This document shows, piece after piece, positions 43,792 through 43,982 of a stretch of 64,000 bases of DNA. Location: assembly GCF_001279005.1 (NCBI RefSeq), contig NZ_LGCN01000265.1:186001-250000 (forward strand), written 5' to 3'. Position 1 is the first letter of the stretch. Each line of letters starts with the position of its first letter. The position numbers and the translations under genes are program-made. The stretch is from Streptomyces caelestis. Its GTDB lineage: Bacteria; Actinomycetota; Actinomycetes; Streptomycetales; Streptomycetaceae. Below the pieces are notes generated by a model that worked only from the letters and a program-made list of their open reading frames with translations, did not search any database and was not told where the DNA came from.

Positions 43792-43845
43792 GTCCGTACC
43801 GCGACGGGCGTGCGACCCCGATAGGGTCGACAGCAGTCGTTCGGA

Positions 43846-43869
43846 CACGCGTCCACGCACGCACGCGTG
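43846..43869 (+). repeat. Upstream hairpin in the pyrH leader
   Basis: CACGCGT (43846-43852) and ACGCGTG (43863-43869) are complementary, with some extension outward (GGA/TCC with bulges). It precedes the larger leader hairpin and could compete or stack with it. Confidence 0.4.
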
Positions 43870-43895
43870 CCGGACGACAGCAGATCTGACGAGGA

Positions 43896-43941
43896 GGCCA
43901 TTGCCGCATGGGATGTGAACCACGCCCCACCGGCAATGGCC
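43896..43941 (+). promoter_or_regulatory. Attenuator-like hairpin in the pyrH leader
   Basis: GGCCATTGCCG (43896-43906) and CGGCAATGGCC (43931-43941) are perfect 11-bp arms around a 24-base loop; the 3' arm is followed by TTCTTCG. The 5' arm overlaps the SD region GAGGAGG and the loop contains the ATG of an 18-codon ORF, so translation and folding are mutually exclusive. Confidence 0.7.
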
Positions 43942-43964
43942 TTCTTCGTATGTGCAACACGTGA
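43908..43964 (+). CDS. Putative 18-residue leader peptide upstream of pyrH
   Basis: ATG 43908 is preceded by GAGGAGG with ten bases between, and the frame encodes MGCEPRPTGNGLLRMCNT before TGA at 43962. The stop is 19 bases before the pyrH ATG. The 3' arm of the leader hairpin lies within the ORF, so ribosomes translating it would open the stem. No run of one regulatory codon is evident. Expression is inferred, not shown. Confidence 0.45.
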   Translation: MGCEPRPTGNGLLRMCNT

Positions 43965-43982
43965 AAGAGGCGGGATCCGACG

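Follow-up and report, generated by a model that had tools for sequence, protein, structure and literature searches.

A conserved hairpin at the ribosome binding site of actinobacterial pyrH, probably a translational control element, and its displaced form in Streptomyces

A hairpin and a short reading frame between tsf and pyrH

UDP, UTP and CTP share a precursor that UMP kinase supplies, and the literature matches listed contained no account of how actinobacteria adjust the level of this enzyme. In the 64,000-nucleotide stretch of Streptomyces caelestis DNA analysed here (hereafter the window; contig NZ_LGCN01000265.1, positions 186,001 to 250,000), a short reading frame interlocked with a hairpin precedes a gene at 43983-44741, which we take to be pyrH from a previous sequence-only reading and from general knowledge. 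Is this arrangement a regulatory element, and is it the reading frame or the hairpin that has been kept? The interval analysed is 43792-43982 (191 nt). The features of the locus, in window coordinates, are as follows.

42955..43791, + strand: tsf (EF-Ts), the gene upstream of the interval (open reading frame; its protein was the upstream tblastn landmark)
43822..43827, + strand: TAGGGT, a -10-like box and possible pyrH promoter (sequence)
43833..43881, + strand: P1, a second hairpin, upstream of P2 (single folds)
43889..43906, + strand: 5' arm of hairpin P2, near-invariant, containing a Shine-Dalgarno sequence (SD) (arm conservation and pair counts)
43891..43897, + strand: SD1, GAGGAGG, the SD of pyrH itself in other families
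43907..43930, + strand: P2 loop, variable, 24 nt in the window with an ATG inside, 20-29 nt among 160 relatives
43908..43964, + strand: leader ORF of 18 codons (ATG 43908-43910, TGA 43962-43964), not conserved as a coding unit
43931..43949, + strand: 3' arm of P2, whose changes mostly preserve pairing
43939..43971, + strand: P3, a putative alternative structure in which the 3' arm folds onto the pyrH SD once the 5' arm is out of reach (folding with the 5' arm removed)
43964..43970, + strand: SD2, AAAGAGG, putative SD for the downstream pyrH start (sequence)
43983..44741, + strand: pyrH (UMP kinase) (open reading frame and protein matches)

The sequence-only reading had described an SD, an ATG at 43908, a TGA at 43962 and 18 codons starting in the loop of a hairpin, and all of these are present. 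The encoded peptide is MGCEPRPTGNGLLRMCNT, the frame is that of pyrH (43908 to 43983 is 75 nt), and 21 nt separate the stop from the pyrH ATG. The perfect stem it reported is also there, but its uninterrupted length is 12 bp (43895-43906 / 43931-43942) and not 11, and through a G-U pair and a one-base bulge it extends to about 18 pairs (43889-43906 / 43931-43949). Stem and SD are indeed interlocked, although GAGGAGG lies within the 5' arm and not merely beside it; likewise the pyrimidine-rich stretch said to follow the stem exists, but it is the 3' arm itself, paired with the SD, and no T-run comes after it.

When 43887-43958 was folded the energy was -41.1 kcal/mol (z -5.94), and the whole interval gave a z of -6.76; in each case 0/200 shuffles were as good. 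A second dyad had been noted upstream, and folding places it at 43833-43881 (P1). In 150 relatives the P1 region has a mean z of -2.1, with 77 below -2 (mononucleotide shuffles), and RNAalifold did not recover the P1 helix on the alignment. The length of the P2 stem alone proves little, because the GC-rich window holds 69 inverted repeats of at least 11 nt within 60 nt; conservation is what distinguishes P2 from the others. A 13-bp perfect inverted repeat with a 12-nt spacer was also seen between rpsB and tsf (42816-42853).

The interval has no match at the gathering threshold in Rfam release 15, where the sole match of the window is a TPP riboswitch elsewhere (49253-49358, above the gathering score), and a pyrH leader is not described among the literature matches listed (titles and abstract starts, with few subscription papers covered). 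Within that coverage the element appears to be undescribed. The TAGGGT box is found within about 100 nt 5' of the hairpin in 147/160 sequences, and a sigma-70 consensus scan reported no promoter at it. Lying 5' of P1, it could yield a leader of about 150 nt. Around the box there is a GACCC-loop-GGGTC dyad (43812-43829 in the window) that recurs in many Streptomyces rows of the alignment; we suggest that it is a promoter element or a small hairpin.

Conservation of hairpin and reading frame within the family

We collected 170 tsf-pyrH intervals (160 distinct), including other genera of the window's family. Eighty of the 170 loci were those nearest to the window's PyrH (best 80 of 591), and the remainder had a DNA match to the interval. 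Such a match was present in 60/61 genomes of the genus, the window's own included, and the one miss was a genome that is 82% complete. Both arms fitted the pattern in 153 sequences, and 139 of these share the 19-nt 5' arm TGACGAGGAGGCCATTGCC without a change. Scoring 17 pairs in 41 non-redundant sequences, we counted 37 cells with a one-sided change that still pair (all on the 3' side), 2 changed on both sides, and 6 broken or gapped. The one-sided, pair-keeping changes fit selection on RNA pairing together with an extra constraint on the sequence of the 5' arm. The mean z of P2 is -6.0, versus -1.6 for frr start regions and -0.3 for tsf start regions (30 sampled each), and loops of 22, 25 and 28 nt together account for 97/160 sequences, in counts that ignore kinship.

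A near-perfect inverted repeat with one highly conserved half-site might instead be a DNA operator, bound by a dimeric regulator and not acting as RNA. Against this, the 3' arm loses its symmetry mainly through changes that preserve RNA pairing, the upper stem is swapped for another complementary sequence in other families, and a search of the window's genome with model R1 on both strands finds this single place. We regard an operator as most improbable.

The reading frame has a different record. An ATG lies 4-13 nt downstream of the SD in 63/153 sequences. Counting GTG as well, a start at usable spacing occurs in 68/160 intervals and none in 92/160, figures in which ATG-bearing near relatives are over-represented because sampling was by PyrH nearness or DNA match. 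The automatic pyrH start in this set is sometimes wrong (an ATG in the 3' arm, or the GTG of ACGTGA), and we therefore draw no conclusion from how often the stop of the leader frame overlaps that start. In the 68 intervals the 3' arm is read in frame 0, 1 or 2 (47, 15 and 6, respectively), and the leader peptide is therefore not constant. The conserved ORF codons that had been proposed as a sign of function were thus not found, and we rejected the leader ORF as a conserved peptide, since its start is present in 68/160 with differing frames and ends. Initiation at the ATT or TTG in CCATTGCC was rejected too: the TTG is almost always kept in Streptomyces rows, the frame and end are not. Rows of sister genera carry CCACTGCC or CCACAGCC in place of CCATTGCC.

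These results bear directly on the attenuator reading. The pyrBI and pyrE leaders of enteric bacteria are UTP-sensing attenuators, in which UTP sets the speed of polymerase and coupling to the ribosome on the leader ORF decides termination. The window resembles them in having a pyrimidine gene, an SD, reading frame and hairpin that are interlocked, and a pyrimidine-rich 3' arm. It differs from them in that no T-run terminator precedes the gene and no leader peptide is conserved (68/160, mixed frames), and in the families of presumed ancestral type described below the frame inside the hairpin is pyrH itself. Transcription attenuation of this kind is accordingly very unlikely, and UTP sensing is unsupported. 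What survives of the earlier interpretation, which is partly supported, is a selected RNA hairpin interlocked with a ribosome binding site (RBS) upstream of pyrH.

Families and genera are given here as unnamed labels (f and g), f1 being the window's family, which contains the named Streptomyces loci. R1 matches 57/61 genomes of this family at E<=0.1, in 16/17 genera, and all 50 of the 57 places that were examined lie between tsf and pyrH. The four misses make up genus g5, in which the hairpin is present with a different upper stem and an in-frame GTG; a second model, R2, found all four g5 genomes with g5 absent from its training. In g2 there is a GTG 8 nt after GGAGG, in frame with pyrH. In g3, g4, g10, g11, g14 and g15 the GTG opens a frame separate from pyrH at 14 loci, forming an upstream ORF, and two g3 loci have no ATG or GTG at the arm SD.

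Upstream ORFs with overlapping stop and start, translationally coupled to the next gene, are a known class. Such a stop overlaps an ATG in the pyrH frame at 6/14 of the GTG loci (g3 and g11), with a seventh overlap, at a doubtful start, in L322. Unlike these, the window's ORF is not conserved and its stop stands apart from the pyrH ATG. Within g9, the old GTG of L321 is still in frame and a further in-frame ATG is present, and L170, labelled g9 too, has one extra T in the 3' arm (CCTCCTTCG, versus CCTCCTCG in L321) with the GTG frame shifted; the extra T is the bulge in the window's stem. Its insertion may have been the step that severed pyrH from the old start, which is only a suggestion because the tree described below does not group L321 with L170.

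The hairpin at the pyrH start in other families

A search of 296 class genomes with R1 produced 12 weak matches outside the window's family, 9 of which lie between tsf and pyrH (7 of the first 10 examined, and both of the later two, G201 (L360) and G270 (L362)). At most of these loci the SD held by the arm is the one that serves pyrH, with f37, described below, as an exception. Fifty sense rows were then classified. In f6, f8, f9, f17, f19, f21, f27 and f38 a start codon 8 nt after GGAGG opens the pyrH frame, and this codon is GTG except in f8, where it is ATG; in f35 an in-frame pyrH start follows AGAGG. In all families with an in-frame start the SD is in the 5' arm and the 3' arm falls in the first pyrH codons. 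The form with an upstream ORF consequently looks derived, because in other families the start lying inside the hairpin is that of pyrH.

Covariation of the stem, another of the proposed tests, was looked for in alignments, and the hairpin proved both conserved and covarying. An earlier alignment, A2, had taken in antisense rows because the hairpin is nearly self-complementary (50 of 68 sources gave a sense row). Since the permutation and slide figures of A2 lean towards structure, we rely on those of A3, a MAFFT alignment of 35 of the 50 sense rows with a hand-specified stem of 17 pairs. In A3, 19 rows are from the window's family (genera g2 to g17, and g1) and 16 are of ancestral type, the g2 rows counted in, with 13 of them from nine other families (f6, f8, f9, f17, f19, f21, f27, f35 and f38). 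The rows left out were L006, L022, L031, L105, L136, L139, L150, L164, L319, L331, L332, L334, the poorly folding L280, and L202 and L203, which have an off-RBS form. In A3, 91.7% of cells are paired versus 86.3 in shuffles, two-sided changes occur at 8/17 pairs versus 4.2 (1/500 shuffles as high), compensatory cells number 41 versus 10.0 (0/500), and covariation is 0.281 versus 0.175 (0/500). Slid registers reached at most 61.1% paired, and the register slid by -1 still had 7 pairs with two-sided change and 22 cells. Some outside rows show no better folding than their shuffles (L280, z 0.0; L265, z -2.1).

Across 394 Actinomycetes genomes, R2 found a match at E<=0.001 in 105, of which 40 belong to the window's genus. 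Outside the family, all 37 matches at E<=1e-6 lie between tsf and pyrH (29 newly checked and 8 at loci from earlier steps; 12 used in A3 and 25 not used to build R2), and 35 of the 37 are on the pyrH RBS, the other two being f26 loci (L378 and L379) with a strong match at the junction but off the RBS. Between 1e-6 and 1e-3, 8 of the 26 matches examined outside the family lie between tsf and pyrH and 18/26 elsewhere, with second strands of the same place set aside and 9 further matches beyond the 26; the window's own genome gives a second match at 9.5e-4. At E<=0.01, R2 matches 14/59 other loci, drawn from the PyrH matches listed, and four loci of g50, within f17 (L281, L282, L295 and L296), show no RBS hairpin, so that many lineages are either without the hairpin or beyond the model. 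A plasmid collection gave no match.

Two observations were made alongside this survey. In g51 of f18 (G155, G202, G233, G271 and others) the best PyrH match has an E of about 1e-63 to 1e-66, far weaker than in other f18 genera (about 1e-106 to 1e-110), which suggests a divergent or replaced UMP kinase. In f37 (L202 801-859 and L203 801-859) the tsf-pyrH interval also holds a hairpin whose arm has this GACGAGGAGGCC sequence, immediately 5' of a ACATAGGGTC box (TAGGGT), lacking a start codon and at a long distance from where pyrH begins; we suggest either a second displaced form or an unrelated terminator.

Could P2 instead belong to the upstream message, as a 3'-end or processing structure of the rpsB-tsf mRNA (a terminator without a U-run, an exonuclease barrier or an RNase III site) with an incidental SD overlap? 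A stem of about 18 pairs and -41 kcal/mol would suit this role, the f37 hairpin stands just before the TAGGGT box and far ahead of the pyrH start, and the two f26 matches are at the junction, off the RBS. A study of S. coelicolor describes rpsB-tsf as a bicistronic operon and suspects attenuation upstream of tsf (PMC1779546); separately, tsf is placed in the HrdB regulon (PMC6344877). On the other side, the sequence has no T-run downstream of the 3' arm, and in many families the conserved arm is an SD with an 8-nt spacer to the pyrH start. The terminator scan covers loops of 3-8 nt and for this reason cannot judge P2. In the 160 intervals no more than 62 nt lie between the beginning of the 3' arm and the called pyrH start; a promoter would hardly fit after P2, so the pyrH mRNA probably contains P2. 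Taken together, a 3'-end structure is unlikely.

Proposed control of pyrH and history of the element

We propose that P2 is a conserved actinobacterial translational-control hairpin of pyrH that occludes its RBS and has been displaced in Streptomyces, a reading based on comparative sequence data to which we give a probability of roughly 0.7. Translational leaders that sequester an RBS are well known, for example in ribosomal protein operons. P2 resembles them in having the SD paired in a conserved stem, a start codon next to the stem or in its loop (8 nt on in the ancestral-type form) and a stem kept by compensatory change (8/17 pairs, 41 cells). Unlike the leaders of ribosomal proteins, the gene here is pyrH, the 3' arm is in the coding region, and the element is not known to have a binding partner. 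In the window's form the pyrH start has moved off the sequestered SD, unlike in other RBS-sequestering leaders, and in this lineage a start for that SD is found in only 68/160 intervals, so we consider it a displaced relative and not a plain member of the class.

In the presumed ancestral form, found in several families, g2 and g5, the pyrH SD is in the 5' arm with the GTG 8 nt on at the top of the stem; the folded RNA would hide the pyrH start, and translation would depend on opening of the stem. Most genera of the window's family have a pyrH start downstream of the hairpin. By an order of events that we infer, the start would have moved there, the old one would have been retained as the GTG of an upstream ORF in some genera and lost in others (92/160 intervals lack it), and a new ATG, that of the window's leader ORF, would have arisen in one Streptomyces group. 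A tree of partial Tsf plus PyrH (41 rows, 214 columns, midpoint-rooted, with weak branches inside the family) has the in-frame form in the f17 rows, the f9 rows and a supported g2+g5 clade, and the remaining rows are forms with an upstream ORF or without a start; g1, g7 and g9 each fail to group together. The window row groups with L031 and L006, both ATG-bearing; moving outward, one meets L022 without a start, L136 with a GTG at 8 nt and L024, again without a start. The simplest account of these states is that the hairpin is old and that the leader ORF, with the window's ATG, was acquired late, although L136 shows that an old start can persist.

If this reading is right, the window's family seems to show a gene start that moved out of its hairpin and left behind an upstream ORF at first, and later an SD that no start codon follows. 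Leaders and upstream ORFs may originate in this way. The case also cautions against taking a leader ORF for the functional part because it looks plausible. A control hairpin at the pyrH start common to several actinobacterial families offers something definite to test.

In the 92/160 intervals where the arm SD has no ATG or GTG, the mechanism of the ancestral form could not operate unaltered. The hairpin probably still acts on pyrH, because SD and stem have stayed under strong selection. A simpler possibility, which overlaps with our proposal, is a signal-independent one: pyrH follows rpsB-tsf, and the only role of the hairpin is to reduce translation of pyrH. The gene order would suit such static tuning, as would the apparent lack of a ligand-binding core beyond the stem and a variable loop. 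We would argue, however, that a weak start could be had more cheaply than by occluding a very good SD almost completely and maintaining that occlusion through compensatory change, and that the arms persist where the start codon is absent. Static tuning is a serious minority alternative and less probable than control.

How, then, would control most likely operate in the window? With P2 folded, the putative pyrH SD at 43964-43970 would be left free. Were the 5' arm held by a 30S subunit on SD1, by a protein, by an RNA or by anything else, the 3' arm would be released to cover the pyrH SD by way of P3, with the exception that a ribosome passing along the leader ORF would keep the 3' arm off it. 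The sequence, its conservation and covariation, the position of the hairpin and the distribution of start codons are observed; the effect on translation, its direction and the P3 alternative are all inferred. In 97 tails (ATG start at least 30 nt past the beginning of the 3' arm, distinct, at most 70 nt) the pyrH SD is paired with the 3' arm in 91, and the energy of P3 has a z of -1.78 in the 45 tails whose SD carries the ACGAGGAG of the arm, against -0.51 for the remaining 52. Partial pairing with this arm is open to any SD, the mean duplex being -8.3 for pyrH (some truncated tails included), -7.6 for frr and -5.2 for tsf. P3 is thus moderately supported.

We offer one further idea tentatively, as a conjecture more likely wrong than right: the Streptomyces arm SD, a ribosome site mostly lacking a start codon, may sense free 30S subunits (or a protein or RNA bound there), whose binding would open P2 and flip the 3' arm onto the pyrH SD. 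If true, what was once a start site would have turned into a regulatory decoy after the gene start moved, and UMP kinase synthesis and nucleotide supply would be tied to ribosome availability in the rpsB-tsf-pyrH-frr cluster. CsrA-type control was considered and rejected, as PF02599 gave 0 matches in the window's genome (G000) and 3/14 control genomes were positive. Among the P2 loops of forms lacking a start codon, GGGA turns up repeatedly, often followed by CCC further downstream (e.g. L126, L024 and L150), and GGAGA or GGGAAC follows the GTG in other forms; these recurrent loop motifs are a possible contact site.
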